A program made the position numbers and the translations under genes. 64,000 nucleotides of DNA from Peronospora farinosa (lineage: Eukaryota; Oomycota; Peronosporomycetes; Peronosporales; Peronosporaceae), in contig CANTFK010000666.1 of NCBI GenBank assembly GCA_947646735.1, positions 372,001 through 436,000 of the forward strand, in the 5' to 3' direction. Every line of letters starts with the position of its first letter. Within the stretch, counting starts at the first letter, position 1. This document shows positions 45,918 through 64,000 of the stretch, in pieces. A model generated the notes under the pieces. The model did no database searches, had not been told where the DNA came from, and worked only from the letters and a program-made list of their open reading frames with translations.

Positions 45918-46615
45918 TTAAAGAGCTGGAGCTGATCCTGGACCTGGAGCTGGAGCTGATCCTGGACCTGGAGCTGAACCTGGAGCTGAACCTGGAGCTG
46001 GAGCTGGAGGAGCAGGACCTGGAGCTGATTTTGGGTCTGGACCTGGAGCTGATCCTGGACCTGGAGCTGATTCTGGACCTGGAGCTGGACCTGGAGCTGA
46101 TTCTGGACCTGGAGCTGGACCTGGAGCTGGAGCTGGAGGAGCAGTACCTGGAGCTGATTCTGGACCTGGAGCTGATTCTGGACCTGGAGCTGGACCTGGA
46201 GCTGGAGGAGCAGGACCTGGAGCTGAACCTGGAGCTGGAGGAGCAGGACCTGGAGCTGAACCTGGAGCTGGAGCTGGAGCTGATCCTGGACCTGGAGCTG
46301 GAGCTGGAGGAGCAGGACCTGGAGCTGATTTTGGATTTGCAGCTGGACCTGGAGCTGATCCTGGAGCTGGAGCTGGAGGAGCAGAACCTGGAGCTGATTT
46401 TGGATCTGGAGCTGATCCTGGATTTGCAGCTGGACCTGGAGCTGATCCTGGAGCTGGAGCTGGAGGAGCAGAACCTGGAGCTGGAGCTGGAGCTGATTCT
46501 GGATCTGATTCTGGATCTGATTCTGGATCTGACTCTGAATCTGATTCCTGATCTGACTCTGGATCTGATTCTGGATCCGATTCTGGAGCTGAACCTGGAG
46601 CTGGAGCTAAACCTG
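45918..46615 (-). repeat. In-frame degenerate tandem repeat in the CAP gene
   Basis: Plus-strand units such as GGAGCTGGAGGAGCAGGACCT and GGAGCTGATTCTGGACCT recur over about 600 bases, followed by a (GGATCTGATTCT)-type block near 46496-46590. All are multiples of three, so copy changes keep the frame. The opposite strand is also fully open here (Leu/Glu-rich), which is an artefact of the repeat, not a gene. Confidence 0.92.
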
Positions 46616-47432
46616 GAGGAGTTGCAGGAGTTGAAGGAGTATCTGGAGTAGCTGGAGTTTTACCGGGTGCAGTTGGTGAGTTCTTGAGATTAGCAAAAGT
46701 AATCGAGTTCCCGGTGGGACTACTTGCACTCTCGGAGGTTCCGCTGATTTCAGTTGGTGCCTTTACTTTCGCAACAAACGAACCTCCATCCGACGGGACC
46801 TTGGCTCCGTCCAACGGAGTTTTACCAGCTTTAGGAGGTAAAGTCTTCAGATCATCAAAAGTCAACGGGTCTTTCGTATTTTGAGACTTTTCAACGGTGG
46901 AAATACGCTCCTCGCTATTTGTGGCATCTCCATCGCCGCATTCACCGTCCGAGAAATCCACCACCCAGTAGTGCATGTACTTCTTCTTCTTCGCCTTGTC
47001 GAAAGCGTAGCCGAAACCCATAACACTGTGATTGCTGAATAAGGTTTCCTTCACGCTTTTAGCATTGGCCCACTGAGCGACCACGTCGAATGCGGTCGAG
47101 AACCCCCCACCAACGATTTCCGTCACCTTTTTGGCGTTAAAACCCGCTTTTACAGCACGCATCTCGGGTGTCGATTCGCTCGCGCCCATGCTGGTGATTA
47201 AGTCTTTTTCAACCAAGTAGTTTGCCTGAATCTGCGCTGCATTCATGAGCTTCTTATTGGTGCAAAGGTCTTTGAGACCTTTAGCGGCACGGGCATCGTT
47301 AATAGTCTTCAGCAGTTCCTGACGGAAATTGAGAGCCGGTTGATCGTGGTTAGTCACGCCTTCCTTGGGAGCGGTCTCAGCTCCCACGAGGGCCATGCTG
47401 GCAAAGATGAAAATACTGCAAATTTTAACCAT
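45918..47432 (-). CDS. Secreted CAP/SCP-domain protein with long Pro/Ala/Ser/Gly repeat tail
   Basis: 504 codons from ATG 47432. Residues 1-18 are a signal peptide (MVKICSIFIFASMALVGA). A CAP (PR-1/SCP) domain spans about 35-172, seen from LLKTINDARAAKGLKDL, ANYLVEKDLITSMG, EIVGGGF..AFDVVAQW and the closing MHYWVVDFSDGECGDG; the expected catalytic-like His pair is partly altered. A Thr/Pro/Lys linker follows, then SD/ESDPESD repeats and about 190 residues of APGSAPGP-type repeats to the stop. CAP proteins are common in oomycete secretomes and several bind sterols or lipids. The tail looks wall-associated or mucin-like. Host-pathogen interface location is inferred. Confidence 0.92.
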   Translation of the reverse strand: MVKICSIFIFASMALVGAETAPKEGVTNHDQPALNFRQELLKTINDARAAKGLKDLCTNKKLMNAAQIQANYLVEKDLITSMGASESTPEMRAVKAGFNAKKVTEIVGGGFSTAFDVVAQWANAKSVKETLFSNHSVMGFGYAFDKAKKKKYMHYWVVDFSDGECGDGDATNSEERISTVEKSQNTKDPLTFDDLKTLPPKAGKTPLDGAKVPSDGGSFVAKVKAPTEISGTSESASSPTGNSITFANLKNSPTAPGKTPATPDTPSTPATPPGLAPAPGSAPESDPESDPESDQESDSESDPESDPESDPESAPAPAPGSAPPAPAPGSAPGPAANPGSAPDPKSAPGSAPPAPAPGSAPGPAANPKSAPGPAPPAPAPGPGSAPAPAPGSAPGPAPPAPGSAPGPAPPAPGPAPGPESAPGPESAPGTAPPAPAPGPAPGPESAPGPAPGPESAPGPGSAPGPDPKSAPGPAPPAPAPGSAPGSAPGPGSAPAPGPGSAPAL

Positions 47433-48043
47433 AACTTCTTCTAAGAATTAAACAACCGAGCTTTAGGTCAAATGAGAGAGATGATGGTCCTCTGTCGGTA
47501 CCTAAGCCAATCGCAGAGTGAAGTATTATTTATACGCTCAGATTTTGACGCACGCATTGACAGCCTGAGCATTTGCAAAGCTCAAGAAAAGCTGAGCACA
47601 AGAAAAAGGCCCTTCCATACAGACGACAACCCAATACAAAGACATTGTGAAATATCGAAGCCAGTGCAAAACAAACGCGACTTTCAACCAAAAACGACAA
47701 CAGTTGGCAAGACCAGAAACCATCTGAGAATAGGGATTTTTAATGCACCTATATATGTAAAAATACCTCGATCAGAATTGACAGACTTGACGATTTCTTG
47801 ATAGGGATCGAATACCTCCTTGGCTGTCGAGTTGTATAACTGTGGAGTCACTGAATTTACAATTAAAAGCGCCATTTTGTAGAGTCTTAACTTTACACCG
47901 ATAATTCACAGGGGACAATTTGAAGCCGTTTTTCTTAAGAAAAAGGTAGGTATTAATTATTCGATCTGTGCTCACGAAAAATGTATTCAGCTGTGAGTTA
48001 AACGGAACACTATTTTACATTAAGTACAAGTGTAACGATGTTA
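47433..48043. other. Intergenic upstream of the CAP gene, to the first LTR
   Basis: 611 bases. The CAP promoter should be just right of 47432; ATTTATAC at 47527-47534 is TATA-like but on the plus strand reads away from the gene. No other feature was recognised before the LTR at 48044. Confidence 0.4.
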
Positions 48044-48277
48044 TGTATGTTGACAACTTGCCCTCCACTCATTGCGCGCGTCCATCGGTCATTTGTCAGC
48101 GCGTTGGTCGATATGATGGCCCATATCAACCAATGAGAGGGCATCTCCAACTTCAAGGAGGTCTAGGAACAATATTATTAGAAAAGGTAATATTGTCAAA
48201 TATTATTAGTTATAATAATATTTTAATTGACACTTCATATAAGTGTCAATATTATGTAACGGGCTCACCCCGTTACA
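48044..48277 (-). repeat. 3' LTR of element 1
   Basis: Starts TG and ends CA on the plus strand, with a terminal palindrome TGTAACGG...CCGTTACA (48255-48277). Nearly all of it folds into successive hairpins: 48169-48196, 48198-48223, 48226-48250 (ATTGACACTT stem) and 48255-48277. About 96% identical to 55629-55862. Confidence 0.95.
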
Positions 48278-48291
48278 TCACCCCCCTCAAC
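48278..48291 (-). promoter_or_regulatory. Polypurine tract of element 1
   Basis: On the minus strand GTTGAGGGGGGTGA lies directly against the 3' LTR start (TGTAACGG). This is the purine run expected as plus-strand DNA primer and it fixes the element's orientation as minus. Confidence 0.8.
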
Positions 48292-48322
48292 CAACAGTCA
48301 CATTAGTGACTGTTTAGTGACT

Positions 48323-49209
48323 ATGGGAAAGGAGAACCTCTTGAATTTTTTTTCATTTAACAATTACGCTATGACAAAGTCAATGCGCGTCGCTGCTAAG
48401 GCAGCCAAGAGCTCGGCTGCACACAGGCGTGCAGCCGCTACTGAGGCTTCACAGCATCAGCCTGCAACGCCTGTTGCAGGTTCACGTAGCGCTTCGCCAC
48501 GTGAAGATGTTGACCCAGACTTAGTCGTTGACTACTCTGGTGAGTCGGATGACGCATCCGGCTCAAAGTCACCTATTCCACTCCCGGGCTCTCCCCGGGG
48601 TGATACCTCGTCGTCTAATGTTACGAAGAGGGATCGTGGTACATTGAGTGAATCAATGTACCGTGAAATGTTCGGGTCGTCGGATGAATCAGACGACTCG
48701 CCAAACGAGTCGAAGGATAGTGACTCGGGTGGGGACCGTAAGGGTGATGTCAGTGCTTCTACTGACATCAATGCTCATAGTGTAGGTACTTCTGTTGACA
48801 CTAATGCTCGTGGTGTCGGTACTTCTGTTGACACCACGCAGGAGGCTTTAGACCGCAACGTATTGCGACTTGCTCCTGATCGCAAGCCATGGATGCTACC
48901 TAAGCATCTGCTTGATCGTTGGTCTGGAAAAACCAACGAACGGTTCCCCATACCGTTGTTTGATGCGTCAAAGCTTCATGGCCTTGACGCCAGTGCGAAG
49001 AACTTTCGCACTGAGAACGATTATTACATCAATGTGTTCCTTGAACATCGATGGTATGGCCACACAAGAAGCGTGAGGCTGACGCGTTCCTCCAATCTTG
49101 GAACGCGTTTATCACCAACGTTTTAAACGTTGGGAAAGAGGCTTGGTTTCGAAGACTTTTTGCTAGCCGCAATAAGTTTGAGAAACGAAGTAAGTCCGGT
49201 GCATGCTAA
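48323..49209 (+). CDS. Antisense accessory ORF A of element 1, unknown function
   Basis: An ATG frame of 268 codons (48323-49126) on the strand opposite to gag-pol, between the 3' LTR and the end of pol. It has an Ala/Lys/Arg-rich N-terminus (RVAAKAAKSSAAHRRAAA), a motif DPDLVVDY near residue 75, a Ser/Asp-rich acidic region, and a tract beginning KPWMLPKHLLDRW. Near 49045-49075 good coding character moves to another frame (WPHKKREADAFLQSWNAF ... to TAA at 49209), so a frameshift has probably occurred. The DPxLxVDY motif recurs in the matching antisense ORF of element 2. I know no family for it; nuclear localisation is a guess from the basic start. Confidence 0.6.
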
Positions 49210-49355
49210 CGTTTGCACCGGTTATCTAAAGAGGCAGGCCTGTTATGCCTCTCTTCGGGCGACCCATGCCCGGGGCGCCTGAGCACCTCGTCAAGAGCGC
49301 CTAAGGAGACGTACTCCTTACTGAGCCCTGGTGGAGGGCTCGCATCTCTTCTGAA

Positions 49356-50015
49356 ATGCGTGAAGGGATTGCTACTTTGCAATCCCTTTACGAGCGCGCT
49401 GGGCGCTCGTTTTCCGATGGTCCTTCACCATCGGGTGCCCCTTGTCGTACTGTTCGACAAGGCCGGGAACGTCGGCCATCAGTTGGGCCCGAGGTTCCCA
49501 GCTATCCGCCGAAGGCGGATAGCTACGCCACCGGACGAGATAACTCGTCCGACGTCCCTTCAGCTCGCGGTGCTTTAGTAAGCGTTCCACGAGAAAGCGC
49601 TTCCCACCATGGGAGTCCACCAGCGGATGCGGTGGTGGAGGAAAAACCCTGTCCGATTCTTTCATCGGACTTGGCTGCTGAGTTAGAAGGGTTTGCCCGT
49701 GTATCTCGTGAGCTCCGTTGTGATGTTGATCACGAACGGGATAAGCGTCGCCACTTAGAGGACATTGTGCGACAGCTTTGGTTTGACCATGAGAAGTCTC
49801 GGGCAAACAATGCTGTCGCACTATTGGAGAATGAACGGCGGCTTCATTCTCTAAGTAACGAGCTGGTGACAGCTCGTCAGGAGATCGTCCAATATCATGG
49901 GAAGATCTCATCTCTACACGACCAGATATCGAATCTGATTCGTGACAACAAGAATCTGAAGGGGATTCTTGAGAATAACGGCTATCTTCGTTGTGTCGAA
50001 GAAGCCGCGTACTGA
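49356..50015 (+). CDS. Antisense accessory ORF B of element 1, coiled-coil protein overlapping pol
   Basis: An ATG frame of 219 codons on the plus strand. Residues 1-100 are Pro/Ser/Gly-rich; residues about 105-210 form a long coiled coil (DLAAELEGFARVSRELRCD, RHLEDIVRQLWFDHEKSRA, ERRLHSLSNELVTARQEIV, HDQISNLIRDNKNLKGIL). The same bases on the minus strand encode the integrase-to-chromodomain linker and the chromodomain, so two coding sequences overlap head-on. The coiled coil sits over the linker, the part of pol with the least constraint. It may be the 3' part of accessory ORF A, separated by a ~150-base gap without a clear frame. Confidence 0.6.
   Translation: MREGIATLQSLYERAGRSFSDGPSPSGAPCRTVRQGRERRPSVGPEVPSYPPKADSYATGRDNSSDVPSARGALVSVPRESASHHGSPPADAVVEEKPCPILSSDLAAELEGFARVSRELRCDVDHERDKRRHLEDIVRQLWFDHEKSRANNAVALLENERRLHSLSNELVTARQEIVQYHGKISSLHDQISNLIRDNKNLKGILENNGYLRCVEEAAY
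49372..49911 (-). CDS. Pol C-terminus with chromodomain, element 1
   Basis: A 179-codon minus frame. A Pro-rich linker leads to a chromodomain at about 49602-49444 (KRFLVERLLKHRE, SYLVRWRSYPPSADSWEP), with the aromatic and Trp-Glu-Pro features of chromatin-binding chromodomains. In chromoviruses such a domain at the integrase end guides insertion to specific chromatin. It is not in one frame with the integrase C-terminal domain upstream. Confidence 0.85.
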   Translation of the reverse strand: MRSSHDIGRSPDELSPARYLENEAAVHSPIVRQHCLPETSHGQTKAVAQCPLSGDAYPVRDQHHNGAHEIHGQTLLTQQPSPMKESDRVFPPPPHPLVDSHGGKRFLVERLLKHRELKGRRTSYLVRWRSYPPSADSWEPRAQLMADVPGLVEQYDKGHPMVKDHRKTSAQRARKGIAK

Positions 50016-50548
50016 ACGTACGGACGAAGACGTCCCACGTAAAACGTAGGATGCGTACGCATCCTGCGTGGCAACTCGATCGTGTATGCGTTGCCTAGGC
50101 GGCGCAATACACGAAACGGGCCGATGTACTTGGGCAACAATTTATTGCTGCCCACGTTAGTCACTACATGTTTAAGTAGGTTTACTGTTGACAGTAAAAC
50201 TAAATTACCCTTTATAAATGTCTAAGCATTTGCCCTTCCATTATTGTCTGCGTTTCGTTTTTGCTTATCCACCTCTTCTGCGATGGAATCTTGCACGAAA
50301 CGGACTACCGCTTCACGAGTCAGCAGGAAGTCCTTAGCTGACTCGTTTCTTTTGGCTGCAGTGCATTGTGAGTGCACTGCAGAGATATCGGTTACTAATT
50401 CAGCGAGAAAAATGCTGTTCTCACTTGTGATACCTCGAACGATGCTGACATCTTCAGCATCATTATCAGTAAGAGCTTCATCGCTCTTACTTTCTTCCTC
50501 TTCACTAAAGTCGAATGGTACGACTTCGGTTACTTTCGCGTCGACCAT
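49982..50548 (-). CDS. Integrase C-terminal domain, element 1
   Basis: The minus frame 50164-49982 encodes KYIGPFRVLRRLGNAYTIEL and HPTFYVGRLRPY, the GPF/Y-type integrase C-terminal module. The frame 50548-50222 just before it encodes the acidic linker and the REAVVRFVQDSIAEEVDKQK helix that normally precedes it. The two are in different frames. Confidence 0.85.
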
Positions 50549-51357
50549 AACGTCGTCGCGTGATGAGCAAGAGCCAGATTGGTTCTCGCTCGAGCGAGTC
50601 CCTCCCCCCCTTTTACATCAGAGTCACCCTCTACTAAGGTGGGGACACGTGGATGGCGAAGGCCATTCACGTAGAACGGTGTATGCGTCGTGGAGGCATG
50701 CACGGAGTTGTTGATGGCAAATTCGACCATCGACAAGAACTCACTCCAACTCGTAAACGAGTGGACGTACCCTCGAAGAATCTCTTCGAGGACGCGATTG
50801 GCGCGTTCAGTCTGACCATCAGTTTCTGGATGGTCAGAAGTAGACATTGTGAGCCGTGTTCCAAGTGTTTGGAACACGGAACGCCAAAACGCAGCCGTGA
50901 ACCGGGGGTCCCTATCGGACACAAGTTCACGGGGTAAACCGTGCAATCGAAAGATTGTATCGATAAACACTCGAGCACAGCCCTCTGCTGTGATCGACTC
51001 AGGTACAGCAACAAGATGTACCATCTTGCTGAACCTGTCCACAAACACGAGAATACCATTATTCCCGTGAGCGTCTTTGAGAAACCCAAAGACGAAGTCC
51101 ATTGATACGGACTCCCAGCACTCTGCCGGAACAGGTAGAGGCTGCAATGGTGCACGGAGTGAAGGACTAGGCTTCACTCGTTGAAACACCTCGCAAGCAA
51201 GCACGCAGGTACTTGCGCACAAACTTATACTGGCGTGGCCAGTAAAAGTCGCAACTGACCGTGAGGTAGGTCTTCTCACGGCCGCGATGCCCAATTGCAT
51301 CGTGACATTCAAAAATGATCCGTAACCTGAGATCATGTTGTGGCGGTACAACGACAC
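50530..51357 (-). CDS. Integrase catalytic core, element 1
   Basis: The D,D-35-E core is intact: Asp in SMDFVFGF, Asp in LVSDRDPRFT and Glu in TDGQTERANRVLEE, followed by FLSMVEFAINNSVHAS. It cuts and joins element DNA to the chromosome. The first ~45 codons of the frame overlap the previous section in another frame, marking a frameshift near 51170-51200. Confidence 0.93.
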   Translation of the reverse strand: MSLYRHNMISGYGSFLNVTMQLGIAAVRRPTSRSVATFTGHASISLCASTCVLACEVFQRVKPSPSLRAPLQPLPVPAECWESVSMDFVFGFLKDAHGNNGILVFVDRFSKMVHLVAVPESITAEGCARVFIDTIFRLHGLPRELVSDRDPRFTAAFWRSVFQTLGTRLTMSTSDHPETDGQTERANRVLEEILRGYVHSFTSWSEFLSMVEFAINNSVHASTTHTPFYVNGLRHPRVPTLVEGDSDVKGGEGLARARTNLALAHHATTLWSTRK

Positions 51358-51679
51358 GAGGCGTGTCGTTCTTGACGGCTGTATAGTACAGGATGCCGTT
51401 TCGCTGGGTGTATCGATCGAGAGAAGATCGATACATGGAAGGCAAGCGCTTCTTAGCTTGCGTGGATGGGTCCTTGAGATACTCCATCAGGCGTACAAGA
51501 TCATTATCTTGTGCGCATGCCCTTCTAATGTCGTCGAGTAAGCTCGACGACAAGACGCTGGTACTCAGCGTGGCGACAGTGGTGTTTACATCGCTGTCGG
51601 ATTGCACAGTCGGCTCTAGGTCAGGCCGACGTGAAAGAGAATCGGCGACGACGTTAAGTCGTCCCGGCTTATACTCCAC
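51167..51679 (-). CDS. RNase H-integrase junction with HHCC zinc region, element 1
   Basis: The minus frame starts MEYKPGRLNVVADSLSRRPD, the usual end of the Ty3/gypsy RNase H module, and runs to FECHDAIGHRGREKTY ... KYLRACLRGV, the start of the integrase HHCC finger. The finger's Cys pair falls at the frameshift into the integrase core. Confidence 0.88.
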   Translation of the reverse strand: MEYKPGRLNVVADSLSRRPDLEPTVQSDSDVNTTVATLSTSVLSSSLLDDIRRACAQDNDLVRLMEYLKDPSTQAKKRLPSMYRSSLDRYTQRNGILYYTAVKNDTPRVVVPPQHDLRLRIIFECHDAIGHRGREKTYLTVSCDFYWPRQYKFVRKYLRACLRGVSTSEA

Positions 51680-51703
51680 GGAGAAGTTGTACTCCGCGAA
51701 GAA

Positions 51704-52887
51704 CTACAACCATCTCGCCATTCGTTGCGAGAGGTGTGGACTATTTACAGCCGTGCGTAGTGACGCATGGTCTGTATATACAATGAAAGGTCTATCTCCT
51801 AAGAGATAGACGCAAAAATTAGCCAGTGCATACTTCATGGCAAGGAGTTTCTTGTCATGCACCGGATAATTGCGCTCGGCCGGTTGCAGCTGACGCGATT
51901 GATAACAGACGACACGCTCTGCGCCGTCTGTATCATATTGCATCAGTGCGCAGCCGATTGCAAAATCACTGGCATCACAGACCACATGAAATAGTCTGTC
52001 TTGATCGGCAATTGCCAATACTGGCGATTGCATCAAGCTTTGCTTGATACGTTCAAATGAACGCTGACAATCAGCGTTCCAGTTACACTTTACATTTTTC
52101 TTGAGTAAACAAGAAAGATGTACTGTCATTTCGGCGTAGTTGCGTGAGTACTTAGGCAAGTACGCCGCTAGCCCAAGGAACTTCCTTAGTTCCTTGACAT
52201 AGACTGGCACTGGCCAGTCGGTGATCGCCTTAATCTTCTCTGGATCAGGGCGTACGCCGTTCTTTCCGACGATGCACCCAATAAGTGGTATTTCACTAGC
52301 TGCGAATTTACACTTCTTGAGGTTGGCGTACAACTTATGCTCGCGCATAAGTGTAAGAATCTTACGGACGTGGAGTCTATGGACTTCCACGTCTGTTTTC
52401 CGTCCATAGCCCGACTATGGACGAACACGTCATCGAAGTAACTTGGTGCGAATTCGCGCACCGGTCTCAATAGATGTGAAACACACCGATTGAATGCGGC
52501 TGGTGCGTTACTAAGCCCTTGCGGCATCATTAACCATTCCCAGAGCATACCACTGGGAGTGCTCACTGCTGTGTACGGGATGTCCCGATCAAGCATTAGG
52601 ATCTGATAGAAACCATCCATCAGATCCATGGACGAAAAGGTGGTACTCTTAGACATACCATCTATGATTACGTCCTTTCTCGGTATTGGCGTTTGCGCCG
52701 GTATCGTTGCAGCGTTCAACTTATTGAACGCGTGCACTATACGCCACCCTACTGTGGCCTTGCGCACACAGAAGGTCGGAGAGCTGTGAGGTGAAGTTGA
52801 CTCCCTCACATGGCCCGCTGCTAGGCGATCGGCAAATAACTTGTCGATCGCCTCGACCTGTTCCCGAGGCAGTGGCCACTGCTTCAT
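51704..52887 (-). CDS. Reverse transcriptase and RNase H, element 1
   Basis: Two overlapping minus frames. 52887-52400 holds the RT fingers and palm (WPLPREQVEAID, SSMDLMDGFYQI, MPQGLSNAPAAF and the catalytic YFDDVFVHS). After a one-base frame change near 52,395, 52390-51704 continues with the thumb and connection (LYANLKKCKFAA, LRKFLGLAAYLPKY) and RNase H (VCDASDFAIGCALMQ, YTDHASLRTAV). All catalytic residues appear present; only the reading frame is broken. Confidence 0.93.
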
Positions 52888-52941
52888 GACACAATATTTT
52901 GTGCCAGGAACAAGGTCGATCTCGTGTCGAGTACCTTTATC

Positions 52942-54198
52942 CTAAGGCAACTCGCACGGAACGGATTCAGGAAATACATTCTTGAATTTGACCAAATCTT
53001 TGTACAAAGGACTTGACTTCAGCGACTCCCAGGATTGCAATGTATATCGTTCAATCCGAGTCTTCTCATCAAGGACACTTTCGTCCATTGATGAGCTGCT
53101 GAGAACCCGTTCGTTCTCGGCAAAAACTGTTGCTGACCGAATGTTAGTCATGTACTCGTCTTCTGCGACGAGCACACAAATCTGCTTGACTTTGCCACTA
53201 CGCAGATCACGCAAGAACCTTTTAGGTTCTAGCGTAGGCAACTGAGTTATCTCCGAAGTTAACTTCGGAGGCGCGATCAGATCAAGCGTATAAGCGCCTA
53301 CGTTTGATCCGTCATTAACCAAGACGTTCAACGTCTCGGTTACTTCCTGGGGACTTATTCCCTCAGTGATTATCTCCTGGGGACTAATTCCCGCAGGCTC
53401 GATGGAACAAGTTCCATCGACTTCCTCTAGCTGTGGTGGCGCAACCACAGCGAGATCCTCTACGATCAACTCTCCAGTTGATCTAGGATTACCGTGTTGC
53501 CGCTTCTGGGCAACCGGTTTACTCTTCGGTGAATGCTGCCCTCTAGGCGAGCATTCATGTCCCGGTCCACTCGACTTATTCGAGTGGTGGACCTTCGGCG
53601 CTGCCTGTGCTTGTGCACAGCCGCCGGCAGCTTGCTCCGCAGCGTGACTGTCTGTCACGCTGAATTCTTGTGCAGTCGTACTAACGACCGAACCAAAAAT
53701 GAGGCCATCACACTCACTCGTAGTACATTTACACGCTTGTGAACGCTCCAAGACGTTCATCAGATGGCCATCTGATGAACAAACGGCAGGCATTTTCACG
53801 GTTCGATGCTGCCAGCTGACCCATGGCTCGTACCTTCTGAGCCATGGTAATCCTAGGATGACATCAAATTTGTCATCCAGGTCAAGTACGATGAAATCAT
53901 CATCGTACTTTTTGCCTTCAAGCGTGTAGTGAATTCCCACTTCACGTTTCTTTACTGTTACGGATGCGCCAGTTGCAAGGCGCACCGTCATCCTCGTGGG
54001 AGGGGTCTCGCGCTCAACATATTTGAGCCTACGATCATCTAGCGGTTGGTGTCGAACAAAGTTGTTCGAAGCCCCACAATCAACTAGGGCGCGAAGTGAC
54101 ATGTTCTTTGTCACTTCGATCTTCAATGTGATGAGGGATACCTCATCACTGGGAGCGGCAACACACAGTGACTGTGTGTTGGGAGCAACCTTCGTCAA
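52942..54198 (-). CDS. Aspartic protease region, element 1
   Basis: A 418-codon minus frame. The retropepsin-like fold appears early: LRALVDCGASNNFVRH with the active Asp (Cys in place of the usual Ser/Thr of DS/TGA) and DVILGLPWLRRYEPW. A long variable region precedes the RT start. The frame is offset from gag, as is common where a frameshift regulates Gag-Pol ratio in this group, but decay is equally possible. Confidence 0.88.
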   Translation of the reverse strand: MTKVAPNTQSLCVAAPSDEVSLITLKIEVTKNMSLRALVDCGASNNFVRHQPLDDRRLKYVERETPPTRMTVRLATGASVTVKKREVGIHYTLEGKKYDDDFIVLDLDDKFDVILGLPWLRRYEPWVSWQHRTVKMPAVCSSDGHLMNVLERSQACKCTTSECDGLIFGSVVSTTAQEFSVTDSHAAEQAAGGCAQAQAAPKVHHSNKSSGPGHECSPRGQHSPKSKPVAQKRQHGNPRSTGELIVEDLAVVAPPQLEEVDGTCSIEPAGISPQEIITEGISPQEVTETLNVLVNDGSNVGAYTLDLIAPPKLTSEITQLPTLEPKRFLRDLRSGKVKQICVLVAEDEYMTNIRSATVFAENERVLSSSSMDESVLDEKTRIERYTLQSWESLKSSPLYKDLVKFKNVFPESVPCELP

Positions 54199-54229
54199 GA
54201 GTCCCGCGAACTCTCTTGACGTTGCTGGA

Positions 54230-55278
54230 TCAGTAGGGCGCTCCGCCCCTACTGACCCCGACCGTTTTCTGATGGTCCACCACGTTGTTGCGATTTCGCA
54301 GCAACGTGGGACCCACGTCTCTGGCCCTTCTTGGCAGACGGTCGATCGTCACTCCCAGTGTTACAAGACACTGGGCGTGGGCACTACACTCATAAGCGTA
54401 GTGGCCCAACTTCTGACAGCGATTGCACTTTTGCAATCGATTGTACCCTGGAGAGCGAGGTCTCTCGCTCTCTACATAGGAGAGGTCCATTGGTTCTGGA
54501 CCTCCGCCCTCCTGTCGTCTCGGTGGACGATAGAATCCCGAGTGGACGTGAGCCTGTTGTAGGCTAAAGTCCTCCTGTTCCGCTGCAGAGATCGCTTGAT
54601 CCAGCGATTCTAGTTCCAAGCGGAACAGGTGGGTCTTGACAGGACCATCTGTCAGACCCTTGATGAACACAGTAACCTGCGTGTGTTCATCGATTGGGTT
54701 CAGTACGATACAGCTAACGAGGTATCGTACGTGTTGGGCGTAAGCGTGTATATCACGCTTACCCTGTTTCAAATCCAGGAGCTCAGCCCGAGCCCTGATT
54801 CGGCGCGAAGCGGTTCAAACGTGTGTTTGAGCCGCGCCTTGAAGACGTCATACGTTGGGAAAACGTATGGGTCGTGCAGTTTGAGCCCTAAGGCCCAAGC
54901 TTTGGCACGTCCTGCCAAGCTCGACATGGCGAACTTGACCTTCATCGCATCGTCATCGATGCGACGAGCCTCAATGGCATCGTCGAGCTCGACGAACCAT
55001 CTCAACAAGGAGTCGCTTTCGACTGCCTTGTACTTGGAGACATCAATCTTCAAGGACTCGGGTCGACGTGCATACGCCGACCCGGCAGCAACAGCACTAG
55101 CCTGCTGTTGTCTCAACAGTTCAACCTGTTGAGAACCTTGCTCCTCTAGCAAGGTGAGTTTCTTTACAACTTCGTCAAGTTCATGTTGTATGAACTTGGC
55201 GATGGTTGCATGTTGGTCGTCTCCGCTAAGAGAGAGCAACATGGAACCAACGGCAGGGTTGCCGATGGTTTCAGCCAT
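54230..55278 (-). CDS. Gag, element 1
   Basis: Two minus frames meet near 54,775: 55278-54769 (from ATG 55278; coiled-coil segment EVVKKLTLLEEQGSQQVELL and capsid-like KFAMSSLAGRAKAWAL) and 54772-54230 (DIHAYAQHVRYLVSC, MDLSYVESE and a CCHC zinc knuckle CNRCQKLGHYAYEC). Gag forms the particle and binds RNA through the knuckle. One base must be gained or lost in GGGCTCGGGCTGAGC to join them. Confidence 0.9.
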
Positions 55279-55628
55279 ACGCTGAACCGCATTCCATTCG
55301 AGGTCACTCAAATGGCGGAAATCATCACGCGTTGCGTGATACCCGCTGAATCCATAGCGGGTGGTGCGGTGGTCGCTGAACGGACCACGAAGTGCTACCA
55401 GGTGTAATGGGCCACCCTCCGACTATAATGATTACAGTATAGTCTACTTTCACTGATGACAGTGAAAGCAGGTGCCTCAATTACCTCTCTTACACAAGAG
55501 GCAGAGGAAGCTTTACTTCTAAACAAACGCTTAGAAGTAGAGGAAAAGAAAACTGTATTTAATATAGTTAACTATCTTAATAAAACTAATCTGTTATAAC
55601 CTATGTTAACTATATTAAACTACAACTA

Positions 55629-55862
55629 TGTATGTTGACAACTTGCCCTCCACTCATTGCGCGCGTCCATCGGTCATTGGTCAGCGCGTTGGTCGATATG
55701 ATGGCCCATATCAACCAATGAGAGGGCATCTCCAACTTCAAGGAGATCTAGGAACAATATTATTAGAAAAGGTAATATTGTCAAATATTATTAGTTATAA
55801 TAATATTTTTATTGACATTTATATGAAGTGTCAATATTATGTAACGGGCTCACCCCGTTACA
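55629..55862 (-). repeat. 5' LTR of element 1
   Basis: A 234-bp direct repeat of 48044-48277. Besides three isolated substitutions, the centre of one hairpin (55811-55835) is inverted relative to the other LTR. It should hold the minus-strand promoter for gag-pol. Confidence 0.95.
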
Positions 55863-56155
55863 TGGCAGGTCCAGTCTCAAGGTTCAGACTGCTAGAAGAA
55901 CTTGAGTCCTTGACTCCCCTGTTAGTTGTACCCGGTCCAAAGGTGTGAGACATGTCGTGAACTTGTATTTTATGTGCTATTAGTGAAAGCTATATGTAAA
56001 TTTACGATGTTTAATAGTGTCTTGCCTAACTAGATAGTAGAAGATGTCGAAAAGCTGGAGCAGGAGCTGAGAGACCATCTTGAGCAGCAGCGTATCCACG
56101 AACAAATGACGATTTTGGAGCTTCGCAATCCTATCGTAGAGGATGAGACTGCTTA
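55863..56155 (+). pseudogene. Two exon pieces of an unidentified host gene between the retroelements
   Basis: Directly after the LTR a frame reads PVSRFRLLEELESL ... VVPGPK and ends at AAG|GTGTGAG (55941). After a 91-base intron-like stretch ending ACTAG it resumes IVEDVEKLEQELRDHLEQQR ... ELRNPIVEDETA and stops at TAG 56155. Phase 0 is kept and the second part is a short coiled coil. The 5' part is missing, removed or displaced by element 1. I do not recognise the protein. The frame after the TAG stays open (PELSESEICG) to about 56,190, so the stop could be a secondary mutation. Confidence 0.55.
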
Positions 56156-56249
56156 GCCGGAGCTGAGCGAGAGCGAGATTTGTGGAAAAGGTAAAAGCTA
56201 GAATTTTTAGTAATCCTGATTCTGTGATTCAAGACTGAGCCATATTATA

Positions 56250-56583
56250 TGAATTATAATTAAATATAAACTTAACTACTGATTGGCTATATATGTATAG
56301 ATATATCGATCGGATACGCGACTCTTTAGAAGCGTATCCTGACGCACGAGCTTCAATCTAGATTCAAGCTTGCGAATGACGTCCTTCTGAGACGTCGCGA
56401 TGCCTAGCTTCAACTAGCGTCATCCCTTCCCATGTGAATCCATAAATGGATATCACATTCACGAGGGTGGATCACGTTTGTGTATCGCACCCAAGTGACA
56501 GGTCAAAAGTAATCATGGATACTTTTAGACCAAACATTAAGTATATTACTTAATGTTTACGTGTAACTAGATGCCCTGTTACA
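56250..56583 (-). repeat. LTR-like block A of element 2
   Basis: The right edge is set by TGTAACTAGATGCCCTGTTACA (56562-56583), the same kind of terminal palindrome as in element 1, followed by a polypurine-like run on the minus strand (AAAACGGGGATGG). The left edge is uncertain. Hairpins include 56312-56339 (GGATACGC stem). It shares AACTACTGATTGG and scattered blocks with 63760-64000 but is strongly diverged. Confidence 0.65.
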
Positions 56584-56656
56584 CCATCCCCGTTTTAGAA
56601 CGATTTTTATATTTTGCAAAACATCGCCTAGGAGACAGAGAGACTTGCGAGCCGTT

Positions 56657-56662
56657 TATAAA
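56657..56662 (+). promoter_or_regulatory. TATA-like box before the antisense ORF of element 2
   Basis: TATAAA lies 29 bases before ATG 56691 on the plus strand, close spacing for a very short leader. It suggests the accessory ORF may once have had its own promoter. Confidence 0.4.
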
Positions 56663-56690
56663 CGCGCCGCTTTAGTCTACTCAACTACTC

Positions 56691-58090
56691 ATGCCACCGA
56701 AACGTGGTTAGGCTGATGGGTCGCCTGCAAAGGCACCCATGCAGTCCAGCACTAAGCGCACGCGCCGCGATTTATCGCAGCCGTCGCCAAGTGCTACAGG
56801 CATTGAGATGGATCTTCCATCTTACTATAATGTGGATGAAGATCCATCTCTCATTGTAGACTACAATGAGACTACGCCACTGCCATCACCCCAAAGTGGC
56901 GATGAGCGAAGCGCATTGATGAGACATATGTCCCCATCATTTGAGGCACCTGTCCTTGAGGAAGCTTCTATGCTTCCTGCAAGTGAAGGTAAGGCCTTGT
57001 CGCCTGCGCCTACAATCGCAGCGACTTAGAATGAGCGCGCTACTTCGAAAGGAACATTCGCGACTCAATCTGATGTGACTCGTCACTCTGATGTCTTGAC
57101 AATCCATAACGGAGAGTCAAACTCAGGTGAGTGTGAGCTTAAAGATCCACCGAGTACACCTTCGGCCTCACTAGGCCGCCGTCACGATGGCGGATATGAG
57201 TGGTGGCTTACCACCAATGCCACCTCCATCCGAGTGGATAAACTCTAAAGGGTGTAGCGCAGCGCTTTTGCAGCGTGCAAATATATACGCGTATAAATTT
57301 TATAGCGTCTTTCGTTTCTGGAAGAAGAACGGCAAAGCACTTGGTCGTGCTTTCCCAATTTCAGTCGTGCTGCGTTTTAACGAAAAAGCCGACGAATATG
57401 AAGCTGAACTTCGGCGCCGTCTAACGTTGCAGGAAGATTCAACGAAACAACGGTCGCAGCGAGTCAGCTTCGCCATGAAGCGTGCGCATGAAATCTTGGG
57501 TGGTAAGCGACCCCCAATTGATTCTCGCTACGCTTCTTCTGCTAGTCCATCCGTACCTAGCAGAAAGACATCAGCTGGTGCTGCTTCACATAAGCACCCA
57601 CCAGCCCAGGCAAGTCGACGCGCAAAGCGTTCACAGGCTCCCACGAGTCAAAGCTCGTTGGGTAACCCTTCCACTGGACAAGGATTTGGAGCTTTCGCAT
57701 TCACAAACCGGTGGGCCAACAGCCTTCCAACAAGGAAGCGCGTATTCACTTCCGCGTCCACCAACACAGGTGGCGCCAGATAGGAGTGGAGATTACGCCC
57801 ACCTACTCGCGACTGCCTACCCTGCTGCTGTTTAGTCGTAGGATGAGACCGCTGCGCTGAAGAAGAAGGTGACTGATCTCGAGAGTCAATTTTCGCGACT
57901 GACTTCGGATCTGCGCGATGTGAGGGCGAGGGACCGTCAGGGGTATGACCGCCTGAAACCTCGTTTGGATCATCTTAGAGCGACTGGTAATGATAGACTC
58001 GCGTCAAGCGCGGAGTCCTCCTCGTTCACCGAGTCCTCCACCGAGCCCTCGTTCGTATACGGGAAGCCCCTCGGCTTCCTCTTCGCCTGA
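56691..58090 (+). pseudogene. Antisense accessory ORF of element 2, decayed
   Basis: From ATG 56691 (MPPKRG then TAG) the frame resumes at ATG 56739 and runs to TAG 57029. It has a basic N-terminus (STKRTRRDLSQPS) and DPSLIVDYNETT, matching DPDLVVDYSGES of element 1. Coding resumes at 57187-57783 (FWKKNGKALGRAFPISVVL; EYEAELRRRLTLQEDS), changes frame to end at 57835, and after two TAG codons continues as a coiled coil (LKKKVTDLESQFSRLTSDLRD) to 58090, overlapping the integrase end on the other strand. Several stops are TAG where CAG would fit, suggesting C-to-T decay. Confidence 0.65.
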
Positions 58091-58449
58091 TCGGCCGCGA
58101 CGCTCAACTCACAGTTGACGTCACCATCGGTCTCGTTAGATCGATGTGGATATGTGATCTCTTCTTGATCAACATATCGTTTCAAACGACCCATGTAAAA
58201 TACGGGGTGCGTCATCATATAAGGTGGGAGAGTGAGCCTATAGTTTAGGTCTCCAACCTCCTCGACCACCTTAAATGGCCCAATAAATCGGTCCAATAGC
58301 TTAGTAGTACCACCAGGTAGTACAGAAATTGCATGTTTAGGTAGGGTAGCAGTACTTAATAGCACTTTGTCCCCAACACTAAAGTGTTCATTGTTTTTGC
58401 GACCATGCTGGTCTGCATATTGTTTTTGTTTGTCCTGTGCGCTTGCCAT
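57970..58449 (-). pseudogene. Integrase C-terminal domain remnant, element 2
   Basis: A 159-codon minus frame with VGDKVLLSTATLPKHA, LLDRFIGPFKVVEEVGDLNYRL and HPVFYMGRLKRYVDQEE, the GPF/Y-type module. The frame ends without a chromodomain, unlike element 1. Confidence 0.85.
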
Positions 58450-58660
58450 CGCGTCAAGGACTTTACGTGTGATGGATATCGCTCATCCACAAATCGCTGA
58501 TCTTCGCTCACGTTTTTAGTAGCATCCACCTCGCCTATGACACCCCCAAAAGGTCGGTCATGGATCGACGCTGTTGATAACACAAAAGTGACATCGTCAA
58601 GGAGCACATGCATTTCTTGCCGTGCCTCCTCATTGAAACCTATAGGTGTCGTGACCACTG

Positions 58661-59356
58661 CTAGAATAGCAGTGTCACTAGGGTAATTTTGACCCTCTTT
58701 GGCATTCGCACCGACGAAGTGAGGGGCCCTCCCCCACTAAGGCTCGGGCTGCGCACAAACGATACTGGCGTCCGAGGATGACGCAGTCCGTCAATAGAAA
58801 ACGGTGTTTCACCCATACTGGCGTGAACACTGTTATTAATAGCGAACTCCACGAATGGCAATTGATTGCTTCATTTCTTAGGAGTCAATACAGTACGCAC
58901 CACCACGACTCGATCGTATCGTTCCGTTTAGCCATCTATATGGGGATGATCAGCGGTTGACATGTAGAGCTTGATTCCCAGCAGCTCAATCACATGTCGC
59001 CAAAAACCCGACGTAAAACGCGGATCCCGGTCCGATACTATAGACTCGGGCATCCCGTGTAGTCGATACACGTGATCCAGAAACAAGAGGGCAGCCTCTT
59101 TTCCTGAGATCTTGGTGCTACATGGTGCCAAATGCACCATCTTGCTCAGTCTGTCTACAAAGACGACGAGCCTCGTCCTGTCTTTATGGTCAGGCGGTAA
59201 GCCAAACATGAAGTCCAAACTGAACGACTTCCAACAATCCGTTGGAGTCGGCAGCGGCTTCAGTGGCGCACTGTTGAAGGTGCAGGCTTTATGCGCTGAC
59301 ACTCTTCGCAAGAGCGAATATAGTTGGCCACCCACCGATATAGGTGGGGCCACCAA
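58661..59356 (-). pseudogene. Integrase core remnant, element 2
   Basis: Minus frames 59356-58928 (SLDFMFGLPPDHKD; SIVSDRDPRFTSGFW; STADHPHIDG then a stop where Gln is expected) and 58861-58661 (MPFVEFAINNSVHASMGETP). The region that should carry the catalytic Glu helix is scrambled, so it cannot be active. Confidence 0.85.
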
Positions 59357-59985
59357 AATTCCTCTGACACTCGTAAGAATGTCTTTTCACGGCCCAGATG
59401 CCCACTAGATGGCGCATCATGGCACTCGTGAAGTATCATCAGCTTGAGATCTGTGTCATGAGGGACATAGATTCTCAAGGGATCACAGGGTGACAGCTGA
59501 TGCCATAATAGGCCATCACTGTAACTAAAGCGATTTAGCTTCGCTTTGAGGTGCGACGGAAGGGTAACCTTTCGTCCACCAAAATGGTCCAACAGCAGGC
59601 GACAATGTTCGTCCTGACTGTAGCACTCCTTTGTATCGGAGTCCAATGAGCTCGTCACATGGTACGCCTTTACGGCTGCCAGTGTTGGCGACTCAACTTG
59701 TGTTTCGCACGAGACACGCTTTCCTGGTGTCTTGCCTCGAAGTCTGGTCTGCGCGATAGCGCATCAGCCAAGACATATCGACTTACCTGGCTTATGTTCA
59801 ACTTTAAAATTAAATTTAGAGAAGAATGTCAGCCATCTCGCCATTCTCGGCGAGAGGCGTGGTGTATTTATAGCCGTCCGTAGTGATGCGTGATCCGTAT
59901 AAACCACAAAAGGTTCGGTGCCCAAGAGGTGCACCCGAAACTTTACAAGGGCATACTTAATTGAAAGTAGCTCCTTGTCATGCAC
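59260..59985 (-). pseudogene. RNase H end and HHCC finger remnant, element 2
   Basis: 59985-59764 encodes the RNase H piece YALVKFRVHLL and VVYTDHASLRTAI; 59658-59260 encodes the spacer and the complete HHCC finger (HECHDAPSSGHLGREKT ... SCEECQRIKP). The two are separated by stops and a frame change. Confidence 0.85.
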
Positions 59986-60175
59986 AGGGTAATTCAGATC
60001 TACGGTTTCAAAAGTCGAGACTGATACTATATGACACGGTCAACGTCGTTGTCATCCTTTTGCATGAACGCGCTCCGATTGCAAAATTGCTTGCATCGCA
60101 GACGACGCTAAAAGGCTTATCCGCGTCTGACAATGCTACGAGTTGATAACACCGAACCAAATGGCAAAACAAGCC

Positions 60176-61140
60176 TCAGCCAAGACCGGTGGCTCTACAA
60201 GAGATTGCTTCACTAATGTGAACGCATCTTCTTGCTCCTTTGACAAAGTCCATTCTGTATCCTTTTTCAAAGGTCAGACAATGGCTTAGTCTACTCCGCA
60301 TAATTCTTGCTGTACTTATGCAAGCAATTAGCGAGCCCAAGTAATTGGCGCAGATCCTCCACATGACGTGAAACTGGCTATTCCTTTACAGCCTTTACCT
60401 TTTCTGGGTCTGCTTGTACACCATGTGCACCTACGATGCAGCCCAGCACAGGTATCTCGTGGAACCCTATGACGCACTTTGCAAGTTCACGTATAAGTGG
60501 GCGTCACCCAGAGTCTGCAACACAGCGTCTAAATGACGCTTGTGCGACTCTATTGCACTCAGACCGTCCTCCGCCCTACTATGCACGATACATCGTCAAA
60601 GTAATGGGGCGCGTAGGCACGGTGCTGACGCATTAACGTGAACCGCCACTCGGTTAAAATGTTGCCGGAGCATTTCTCAACCCTTGTGGCATCACAAGCC
60701 ACTCCCACAGCATACCGCTTGGGGTGCTTACTGCCGTCTTGGCTACATCAGTATCTCTCATGAGAACCTGATAGTAGCCATCCTTCAGATCCAACGCGGA
60801 AAAGATAATTGACTTTTCCATGGAATTCAACAAACATCTTTCCGCTGAGATCGGCGTTCGAGCCGGAATGGTGGCCGTGTTCAGCTATTATAAGCATTAA
60901 CCATGCGCCATCCACCTGTTGCTTTACGCACACAGAAGGTTGGGCTGCAGGGATGCTACTTGCTCTCACATACATGTCCGCCTTGGCTCGCTTGTCGAAG
61001 AACTCATCGATGTAATCGACTTGTTCCTTCAGCAACGGCCATTTCCTGGTCACACGATACTTGGTGCCAGGCTTCAGGTCAATCTCGTGCCTGATGCCCC
61101 TATCGGCCGGTAGGCGGCTCGGCACTTCTGCTGGAAACAC
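60176..61140 (-). pseudogene. Reverse transcriptase remnant, element 2
   Basis: 61140-60748 begins VPSRLPADRGIRHEIDLKPG, the usual lead into Ty3/gypsy RT, with KWPLLKEQVDYIDEFF and scrambled palm motifs. Between 60,750 and 60,370 motifs can be matched only across several frames. 60364-60176 is a short connection piece. Confidence 0.75.
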
Positions 61141-61152
61141 ATCACGGCATTT

Positions 61153-62258
61153 CTACAGAACATGATAGAACGGGCTGTCCTTCAAGGCATCCCAGCCTTG
61201 AGCAGCGAACCGTTTCTTCTTGTCGGTTTCCAAGACGCTCTCGTCCATTGTGGATGAAGAGCAACAGTCCACCACGTTCTCTTCTGGAACTGGTGCGACT
61301 ATCTCGTGGATCTTTCCTTCCTTTACTTCGGACAGGAACAGATCCCACTTCATCTCCGAGAGATTTACTATCTCCTCGGAAGATGCCAAGACAAGTTGGA
61401 GCACCTCAACTGAGGATGCCTCCGGCATTTTGTCTTCGACGGCCTCGAACAACTCGTTCGTAGGTCCGTCCTCTTGGACCGAGACTGATCCAAGGGTCAC
61501 TCATTTCGACGTGCCCTTGATCGTCTTAATACGTATGGTGCTAGTTCTTCGAGTCACCACGACCTTTGACCTGGATGAAGGTGTCGTTGCTATTTCAGCT
61601 AACGCACTCCTTTCAATCGCACCAGGCTCTGTGCCGGTTCTTGTGGCACTTGAATTCCTGTCAGCCCACCATCAACTGCCACAGGCTCTCGGCTCTGTGC
61701 AGGACCATTGTACGCTTGACTACCTATCATCTTTTCATTTACTACACCAGTCTTTTCGACCTGGGTAGGAATATGTGTCACCTGGCTTCCTGCCAGGGCA
61801 CTTCCAACTACACCACTCTTTTCGAGCTGGGTACTACCTGGTGCCGATTGACATACCGTCATCGCACCCTCGACTGAGTTGGACACAGCATCAGCCACAT
61901 AAGCCTCTCGCAAGAGCACATCCTTTTTGGTGTCTTGCGTAGAGCTAGCGACTGTGCGTGTACGCTAGTCATTCCATGGTTGATGTTTAGCCAACCAAGG
62001 CATGCCTAGGATGAGGCCATACGGACTCTCCATACCTAGCACTGTAAACTTCTCTGTCCAAGAGAAATCACTGAAGCTGAAGGCGAGTTCAACTTGAACT
62101 ACCTCCAATTTAACGAATGCGCCGTTCGCTAAACGAACGATCGCCTCTTCTCGCTTGCCATCCTGGCAAAGCGACTCATAACTCGTCGGTCTCTTTTTCA
62201 GAGCCGCGAGTTTCACAACGTTTTGTGATGCACCCGAATCCACGATAAGGGTCATCAC
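61153..62258 (-). pseudogene. Protease and variable pol region remnant, element 2
   Basis: 62258-61965 encodes an aspartic protease (MTLIVDSGASQNVVKL with the active DSG; YGLILGMPWLAKHQPW). The following open pieces 61919-61599 and 61500-61153 (MDESVLETDKKKR) correspond to the variable region before RT; element 1 has the same MDESVLDEKTR words there, confirming common descent. Confidence 0.8.
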
Positions 62259-62439
62259 TTGGTCATAGCCTCGTACTCGAGCGCTATAGACTAAAAGGGT
62301 TGAAGTCCAACCTTTCGGAACCTCAGGGAAATTTGTTCGATCACTCTGAACTTATGGGTAGCTTCAGAGTCCACGACAGTAGGGCATCCCGCCCCTACTG
62401 CGCTCCCAGATTTACCAACCCATCTTGAGAAGGTGCTGA

Positions 62440-63435
62440 GCCCTAGAAACGGTAACGCTGATTATTAGCACCTTTCTTCGGGTATGGAGACTTCTTGCTG
62501 GACGCCTTAGCATCAGCAGCAAGTTTGGCATAGCAGCAAGCCATCACATGGCCTCGCTTGCCGCACTTGTAGCAGACAACATCTGCATTGTCTAATTCCA
62601 TAGGAGTGGCATCAGACTTCTCGGTCGACTTCCTGTAATAGGTTGTCGTCTAGGCGCTGTTGTAGGATTGCTCCTCAACTAAGGCAATGTCAATTGCCTC
62701 TTCCATCGTCGCTGGCACCTTTCTAAAAAGGGCCTGACGCGATGGGCCATGCCTAAGTCCATTCATGAATGTGGACACCTTAATATGTTCCGGTATCGGA
62801 CTTCACATTAATGGACGCCCACAGCGAACGCATCTCCTGCACAAATTCTTGCAGAGAGCGTTTCGCCTGTCGTGCTCCAAAGAAGCGCGCCATAAGCAAC
62901 ACTTCGTTGTTAGGCGGCTGATACATGGCGCGAATCTTTGCCTTAAAGATCGCCCATGATGGAAATGCATCAGCATTAGCCATCAGCGCAGAGTATGCCC
63001 ACTCTGACGCTTTGCCACGCAAGTTGGACATGGCATACGACACCATCCTGGTGTCGTCTTCGATGAGCTGCGCCACTCCACATTGCTCCACTGCTAATAG
63101 CCAGTGAAAAATCGTGTGAGGGCTAGTTCCATCGAACTTCGGAGGGTCCATCCGAATGGGCCTCGGTTGAGCAGGCCGGGCAGAGAGCGTTTTAACAGTT
63201 CTGTTGAGCGCCTCATTCCGTGCCTGCTTAAGCCTAAGCTCATCCTGAGTCTTATTGATGGACTCAGCGGTGGCTTGGCAGTTTGCCTCGGACGCATTTT
63301 TGGCTGTCCGAGCACAAACGCTTCATATTGCTCCAAGTGAGTAACATGTTGCTCAGGAGGACAATGCAAGAGATCGTCCACCAAGTCCTTGCACCAAATG
63401 CTCTCTATGAACTTAGGAGAGGTGAGGCAAATCAT
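62440..63435 (-). pseudogene. Gag remnant, element 2
   Basis: 63435-63094 and 63151-62780 carry capsid-like sequence (SYAMSNLRGKASEWAYSAL; FGARQAKRSLQEFVQEM), and near 62,575-62,530 a CCHC knuckle reads CYKCGKRGHVMACC. Frames are broken between pieces. Confidence 0.8.
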
Positions 63436-63759
63436 CCCAATCCACGCTGAAAGACATACGTATCCACACGCACGCTCAGAGAGACGGGTCGTGGGAACGG
63501 CTCACAGTGCTACCAAATGTAGACGAGCGCTTCGTAAAGAATCTTCTACGTACTACGCGGGCACACCTTCAAGCAGCGCGGGAAGCGGTTATACCGTCTT
63601 ACCTCCGCGTGCGGTGGTGTTTGCGTTGGTCGTTCGCTTAAAGTACCGAACCAATTTTTGCCGGCTGCTTAGAGATATCCACTCAACAAACAACTAACAA
63701 GTGCTTCGCTTACGTCACGCAGAAGTTTATTTAGCTTCTCATGCGCAGTGAACGGTAAT

Positions 63760-64000
63760 TAGTAAATTTATGACCAATTATATTTAATAGAATTTAACTT
63801 AATATATATATAACTACTGATTGGTTAATACTAAATGATGGGTGCCATCTATATAGATGCGCATACCAACGTGCGAGCCTAAATATATTTAAGATCGCTT
63901 AATGGCGTAACTGACTGACATCATTTGATGACGCCTAGTCCCAGCTGGGCGTCATCCCCATCAATGTGAATATACCTAGTGTATCTCACATACGCAAGGG
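63760..64000 (-). repeat. LTR-like block B of element 2 (cut by window edge)
   Basis: Shares AACTACTGATTGG and the order of small hairpins with block A, for example GATGACGCC...GGCGTCATC at 63927-63956, but overall similarity is low. It is placed where the 5' LTR of element 2 should be. Divergence this large means an old element or LTR from a different copy. Confidence 0.55.

Follow-up and report, generated by a model that had tools for sequence, protein, structure and literature searches.

In a 64,000-nucleotide stretch of the Peronospora farinosa genome (contig CANTFK010000666.1, positions 372,001 to 436,000; the window in the following), a long terminal repeat (LTR) retrotransposon of the Ty3/gypsy type, here called element 1, was found to be filled with short perfect inverted repeats from one end to the other. 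The whole element has probably been shaped by long-lasting selection into consecutive short hairpins, most likely protecting its transcripts from RNA silencing, and we give this reading a probability of about 55%. It is based on the excess of hairpins, their presence in the copies of the element, the graded folding in four related families and the occurrence of a second hairpin geometry. A preliminary description of the window had placed the hairpin-rich element at 48044..55862. The hairpin trait was confirmed and the position was corrected: the element lies on the minus strand and runs from right to left, the 5′ LTR starts at 55862 and the other end is at 48042.

Inverted repeats and folding of element 1

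The 21 intervals named in the preliminary description all proved to be perfect inverted repeats. Extended to their maximum, the stems measure 7 to 13 bp, with loops of 0 to 9 nt, and the perfect palindromes of 20 nt (53251-53270) and 26 nt (53755-53780) are among them. For the standard count, inverted repeats with a stem of at least 8 bp and a loop of at most 10 nt were determined in tiles of 2 kb and compared to 10 dinucleotide shuffles per tile. A total of 76 such repeats was found in the 7.8 kb of element 1. In the four tiles that span 48001-56000, 23, 14, 15 and 24 repeats were counted compared to shuffle means of 0.1 to 0.6, which is far above chance, as had been claimed. The remaining 28 tiles of the window contain 0 to 2 repeats each and 17 in total, 12 of which fall in the 48 kb left of element 1. 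In the stretch with the anoctamin and M13 peptidase genes, the host control named at the outset, no repeat of this kind was found in 4.9 kb, and the mean folding z-score is 0.04. Thus, neither the shuffled sequences nor the M13 peptidase stretch reach the repeat density of the element.

Stems of at least 7 bp with loops of at most 10 nt are mostly short: 23 have a length of 7 bp, 28 of 8 bp, 27 of 9 bp, 14 of 10 bp, six of 11 bp and one of 13 bp. The most frequent loop lengths are 4 and 5 nt (17 each for stems of at least 8 bp).

The folding strength was determined as minimum folding energy difference (MFED) on tiles of 350 bases against Euler dinucleotide shuffles (not with the NDR program of PMC7642675), and as z-score on tiles of 200 bases. 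Element 1 and its copies are referred to as family A, single loci by L numbers. The MFED is 42% for the window copy and 52% for copy L016, where sense and antisense strand fold alike. The mean z-score is −6.1 for copy L024 and −6.5 for L016, with 98% and 100%, respectively, of the 42 tiles each below −2. Against codon shuffles, an MFED of 41–45% was obtained for three frames of L016. Shuffling synonymous codons in the open frames of L024 reduced 36, 20 and 15 repeats to means of 1.0, 0.7 and 0.4, so that the repeats vanish in this control as well.

Judged by its domain content and order, element 1 is a Ty3/gypsy LTR retrotransposon with a chromodomain and is chromovirus-like. The assignment follows from two direct repeats together with gag, CCHC, protease (PR), reverse transcriptase (RT), RNase H (RH), integrase (INT) and chromodomain matches on the minus strand. 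The features of the chromovirus type comprise the LTRs, gag, the order PR-RT-RH-INT and the chromodomain following the integrase. The following features were assigned:

48042..55862, minus strand: element 1 (family A), the chromodomain-bearing Ty3/gypsy LTR retrotransposon, hairpins throughout
55402..55862, minus strand: 5′ LTR, its length of about 461 nt derived from other copies, with a 9-bp hairpin at its start
54233..55422, minus strand: gag, with low-scoring matches to Retrotrans_gag/Ty3_capsid and CCHC; the frame is interrupted in the window copy
52945..54348, minus strand: protease part of pol (RVP_2), containing the ten hairpins checked in the preliminary description
53251..53910, no strand: cluster of ten perfect inverted repeats, stems of 8–13 bp
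51704..52941, minus strand: reverse transcriptase and RNase H, by domain matches
50530..51703, minus strand: integrase (H2C2 and rve), by domain matches
49375..50094, minus strand: third frame in sense direction, encoding a chromodomain (PF00385, 1.2e-13); copy L016 also matches SH3_Tf2-1 in this frame
49390..49670, no strand: cluster of six perfect inverted repeats, stems of 7–11 bp
49305..50012, plus strand: antisense open frame, part 2, overlapping the chromodomain frame
48260..49123, plus strand: antisense open frame, part 1; a single antisense frame in L016 and L024
48042..48278, minus strand: truncated 3′ LTR that retains about 237 of 461 nt
56227..63827, minus strand: element 2 (family C), a related element of the Ty3/gypsy type whose hairpins have short helices and bulges of one base; both ends are approximate

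The frames are open in better copies: gag has 407 codons in L016 (PF03732 at 5.5e-13), pol 1289 codons in L016 and 1280 in L024, and the third frame with SH3_Tf2-1 and chromodomain 411–413 codons. The repeat density in the LTRs and the antisense-only stretch of L016 matches that of gag; it is lowest in the RT-RNase H and integrase parts.

The genome searched comprises 46.85 Mb on 274 contigs. Searching it with a 660-bp probe gave at least 40 matches of nearly full length, including the window copy, on many contigs (40 of 257 candidates were scored). For comparison, 20 long copies of family A were taken, all of which are hairpin-rich (5.9–13.1 repeats with stems of at least 8 bp per kb of DNA, the lowest values belonging to partial elements). 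L025 and L028, which are partial or rearranged, were left unaligned. Due to poor alignment, L013, L014 and L018 were excluded from the analyses of stem and loop variation, covariation, block copying, family comparison and hairpin loci and were kept for the analysis of loop inversions. The two LTRs of a copy differ by 0.2–3.9% over the aligned part (obtained for 15 of 16 copies examined, those having two LTRs), which points to recent movement of the family. Some copies match the RT frame of the window copy over residues 1–250 and most over residues 1–183; the former suggest a subgroup sharing the frame shift of the window copy.

No relatives outside this genome were detected in the viral, bacterial and archaeal contig collections. 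The genome itself contains 22 matches to elicitins, which are markers of oomycetes; this agrees with an oomycete host, and none of 14 control genomes was positive, a control of little weight as these are prokaryotes as far as named.

Graded folding and a second geometry in related families

Four further Ty3/gypsy families (B to E) were found in the genome, sharing 62–76% nucleotide identity over the RT-RNase H region. Family B consists of L029, L030 and L033, family C of element 2 in the window and L036, family D of L037, L039, L041 and one end of L040, and family E of L038. Based on one locus each, the MFED is 30% for family C (21% for element 2), 17% for D, 11% for E and 9% for B, compared to 0.2% for a copia element, 1.5% for a LINE and −2% for host DNA. 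The mean z-scores show the same gradation with −4.4 (C), −2.5 and −2.6 (D), −2.0 (E) and −1.4 (B). In L016, L024 and L036, 95–100% of the tiles are below −2. The z-scores of the controls are −0.1, −0.2 and −1.0 for the copia loci L042, L047 and L048, −0.6 for L046, a LINE according to its RT and endonuclease domains, and 0.0 to −0.4 for host DNA. Copia locus L048 carries five repeats (stem of at least 8 bp) in 3.8 kb, i.e., 1.3 per kb compared to 0.2–0.3 in host DNA, without strong folding. As far as these few loci tell, the strong folding signal is confined to this Ty3/gypsy lineage.

Raised repeat counts in the copia loci L043 (z-score −0.7) and L045 (−0.6) were traced to their flanks, which hold 517 and 789 bases, respectively, of family A or a relative. 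Outside the flank, both have the same two repeats as L042 and L044. The piece in L045 (L045:3-791) is about 84% identical to family A and belongs to an older or diverged relative that could serve to date the hairpins.

The positions of the hairpins are mostly not common to the families. In the RT-RNase H region, only one to three of the 21 hairpins of family A (stem of at least 6 bp) have a partner in each of the other families; most hairpins were therefore probably acquired separately in each family.

Family C differs from family A in the geometry of its helices. The 7.8 kb of L036 contain 277 single-base bulges and 54 1×1 loops, and element 2 contains 202 and 72, respectively. In three copies of family A the numbers are nearly equal (75–81 bulges and 68–81 1×1 loops), as they are in 16 kb of host DNA (183 and 181); in a further 18 kb of host DNA, 169 bulges and 232 loops were counted. 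The helices between consecutive bulges in family C are mostly 2–5 bp long, and long perfect stems are fewer. Consecutive single-base bulges were found 116 times in L036, eight times in L024 and seven times in 8 kb of host DNA. The ladders could also be identified without folding energies, by searching for Watson-Crick ladders with at least two single-base bulges and at least 12 pairs: 29 are present in the 7.8 kb of L036, 12 in element 2 and three in family A, compared to none in families B, D and E, one in 47 kb of host DNA and none in five shuffles of family C.

The bulged base in family C is a purine on the sense strand in 189 of 277 cases (host stretches: 168 of 352; p = 3e-7). This bias is suggestive of a mark of a single strand; the folding programs are somewhat free in placing a bulge.

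Tandem repeats that vary between copies were observed in two of the families: an array in the pol region of family B (L030:808-1545 and L029:4046-4389) and, in family D, direct repeats with a register of about 87 nt (L037:2938-3450 and L039:2734-3246).

Proposed selection on the hairpins and alternative explanations

Among the aligned copies of family A, changes shared by at least two copies were compared to private changes. At third codon positions and columns outside the sense frames, the ratio of shared to private changes is 19:188 in stems, 97:410 at other sites (p = 0.0008) and 24:65 in loops. Inherited changes thus appear to be depleted in stems relative to comparable sites. Private changes are nearly even, with 318 in 2019 stem columns, 812 in the 5581 remaining columns and 106 in 544 loop columns. 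The coding stems also show an avoidance of mismatches at third codon positions: 15 of 45 1×1 mismatches involve such a position, compared to 1110 of 1852 pairs (p = 0.0006; the 25 mismatches outside the frames were not used). In the coding pairs, the codon phase 1:2/3:3 occurs less often than expected (12 of 70, p = 0.003). From these patterns we infer that the hairpins are kept by selection.

Protection from silencing is the function we consider most likely. By pairing with itself in short helices, the RNA would be shielded from small-RNA guides. With both strands folding alike and an antisense frame present, the annealing of sense and antisense transcripts would be slowed. The helices, mostly 7–13 bp in family A and cut by a bulge every 2–5 bp in family C, would stay below the needs of a Dicer-like enzyme, for which longer helices are expected to be required. 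The host appears to have silencing machinery, since four Piwi and four RNase III matches were found in the genome, two of the latter in a single frame of 810 codons. In Phytophthora, small RNAs of 25 nt originate mostly from transposon loci (PMC3804510), and in animal cells structured viral RNAs evade RIG-I and PKR (PMC3950689).

Several observations weigh against selection on a protective fold. Per Mbp, the largest amounts of small RNA in Phytophthora come from inverted and tandem repeats (PMC3804510), so that hairpins could also attract silencing. The depletion of inherited stem changes is weaker when the site classes are taken apart: the ratios are 11:72 in stems and 60:205 elsewhere for third positions alone (p = 0.085), and 8:116 and 37:205 for columns outside the sense frames, the antisense frame included (p = 0.018). 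At codon positions 1 and 2, the ratio in stems does not differ (p = 1 and 0.77). Little sign of covariation was seen, with six double Watson-Crick changes in 1012 pairs of 16 copies, all of them private. In family C, no codon bias of mismatches and bulges was seen. Neither does family A clearly mark one strand: the MFED of L016 is 52% for the sense and 54% for the antisense strand, the tetraloops of the family show no excess of GNRA or UNCG, and the fixed single mismatches in four copies are A-C in 16–18 and G-T in eight cases, the opposite of what a tolerance of G-U pairs in the sense strand would give. Among shared stem changes, G-T (15) exceeds A-C (6) with p = 0.08. The symmetry of family A therefore does not seem to single out the sense RNA. 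Furthermore, families B and E are weakly structured, and more hairpin centers are shared between families in the RT-RNase H region than expected (16 vs. 6.1 for the ten family pairs), with the pair B-E alone accounting for four compared to 0.6 expected.

The equality of the strands would be expected if both are transcribed. A tentative extension is that an ambisense retrotransposon lineage evolved self-folding of both strands against RNA silencing, that the fold takes two or more geometries, with family A using perfect stems of one turn and family C bulged ladders, and that its transcripts neither anneal nor feed Dicer-like enzymes; this seems possible, if improbable. The antisense frame at the 3′ end of family A has 633 codons in L016 (L016:6026-7924, minus strand) and 615 in L024, and is present in many copies, of which at least six are free of stops over at least 600 residues of it (70 of 927 candidates were scored). 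In the antisense-only stretch, 142 silent and 222 amino-acid differences correspond to a dN/dS of about 0.47, summed over non-independent pairs of seven chosen copies. No Pfam family above the cut-off was found for the putative protein, and the PDB search gave one weak match (kinetochore SPC25, E-value 0.58). The structure model of the L016 protein (mean pLDDT 44.6) is confident only in a C-terminal helix of about 100 residues. A tblastn search gave no significant match in the stretches of families B to E, of which those of B, D and E may miss the 3′ region. The frame contains a 33-nt tandem repeat of 2.5 copies at 48756-48836 of the window.

The hairpins could also be the trace of a mutational process, in which a strand folds back during reverse transcription or repair and copies itself, thereby perfecting a short repeat, with protein constraint as a filter. 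Overall, we regard this as unlikely. Stems that are perfectly Watson-Crick paired and equal on both strands are what it would leave, and protein constraint filtering such mutations would give the same codon-position patterns as those described above. Loops are more variable than stems, and at about ten hairpin loci the loop is inverted between copies: 44 of 633 allele pairs (non-independent) are reverse complements, compared to four reversed and three complemented. Even the two LTRs of a single copy differ by such a flip in 2 of 15 copies (the window copy and L019). A flip of this kind is possible after insertion, however, and so needs no reverse transcriptase, and the inversion of loops alone is not enough to account for how the hairpins arose. 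The majority of the hairpin loci (98 of 128) is present in 12–16 of 16 copies. For most of the 20 loci found in at most four copies, one or two substitutions in an almost perfect repeat account for the stem. Block-wise rewriting of a stem arm was not clearly seen in the aligned copies, with ambiguity at one LTR locus rich in A and T and at a few loci with gaps or polymorphism. The regular single-base bulges of family C would not be made by simple fold-back copying, and the depletion of inherited stem changes also argues against the process. The suggestion of a palindrome-making process in the preliminary description thus gains the loop inversions, but stems copied as blocks were not clearly observed and the bulged stems of family C speak against it.

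A role in the particle or in the cDNA appears quite unlikely. Here, the hairpins would be dispersed packaging or compaction signals read by the Gag of each family, or would result from self-pairing of single-stranded cDNA. The different geometries, i.e., perfect stems of mostly 8–11 bp in family A and bulged ladders in family C, would fit a family-specific reader, and the purine bias of the bulges in family C, within the freedom of their placement, would fit a single strand. Against this, no common motif is visible in the loops of family A, the LTRs and the antisense-only stretch are filled with hairpins as well, and packaging seems to need far fewer hairpins than element 1 carries. A skewed base composition, low-complexity sequence, misassembly and chance are hardly credible as sources of the hairpins, since the dinucleotide and codon shuffles rule out chance, composition and codon usage and the trait recurs on many contigs, while copia, LINE and host controls lack such strength.

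Comparison with known folded genomes

No described element like element 1 was known to the authors of the preliminary description, and this agrees with a search of the retrotransposon literature, in which none was recognized among the titles and abstract beginnings of open-licence papers. Of the readings offered there, a genome-scale ordered RNA structure (GORS) fits best, considering the MFED of 42–52%, the positions not shared between families and the silencing machinery of the host. In our best reading, GORS is the nearest known kind of phenomenon, and the fold of element 1 is stronger and equal on both strands. Common to both are the excess of folding over dinucleotide shuffles along the whole element in tiles of 350 bases and the many consecutive stem-loops (PMC3950689). 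Pairings that are poorly conserved between relatives, as printed for GORS (PMC7642675), were found among the families for the RT-RNase H region.

Element 1 differs from the GORS genomes in being an LTR retrotransposon and not a positive-strand RNA virus, although the fold may work in a similar way. It also differs in the mostly perfect Watson-Crick stems of family A, in the equality of both strands and in the different geometry of two related families. The MFED of 42–52% in family A and 21–30% in family C can be compared to genome means printed for named viruses by the same kind of measure, which are 7.5–17.5%, and 23.4% at most (PMC7642675). There, hepatitis C virus has 7.5–10.7%, SARS-CoV-2 about 15% and the vertebrate RNA virus with the highest value 23.4%; single genes peak higher, such as ORF3a of SARS-CoV-2 with more than 50%.

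The RNA of yeast Ty3, a retrotransposon of the same type, also contains stable stems, and a well-folded core of about 19–20% was found by probing to be independent of the state (PMC11381356). In family A, hairpins are predicted through the LTRs and all frames, and probing and prediction are different measures. Chronos is likewise an oomycete Ty3/gypsy element with a chromodomain, but it is described with a second RNase H of the archaeal type (PMC5348765). This second RNase H is absent from the Pfam scan of the 1289-codon pol of L016, where RT_RNaseH and RT_RNaseH_2 match at one place with E-values of up to 0.001. The words hairpin and inverted repeat do not occur in the Chronos text (PMC5348765).

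The flipping of loops between inverted arms resembles the small inversions tied to hairpins that have been reported for plastids and birds. Those concern single hairpins, in contrast to the roughly ten hairpins of one element in family A.

If the fold is selected, it is the strongest whole-element folding signal met in print or here, in a class of elements for which the literature search above found no such report. The graded strength and the two geometries within one genome would form a natural series for asking why RNA-borne parasite genomes fold, a question shared with RNA viruses.

Adjoining the truncated LTR of element 1, the window contains a frame for a CAP-domain protein (45918-47432, minus strand) with an array of 12-nt repeats at 46502-46621.

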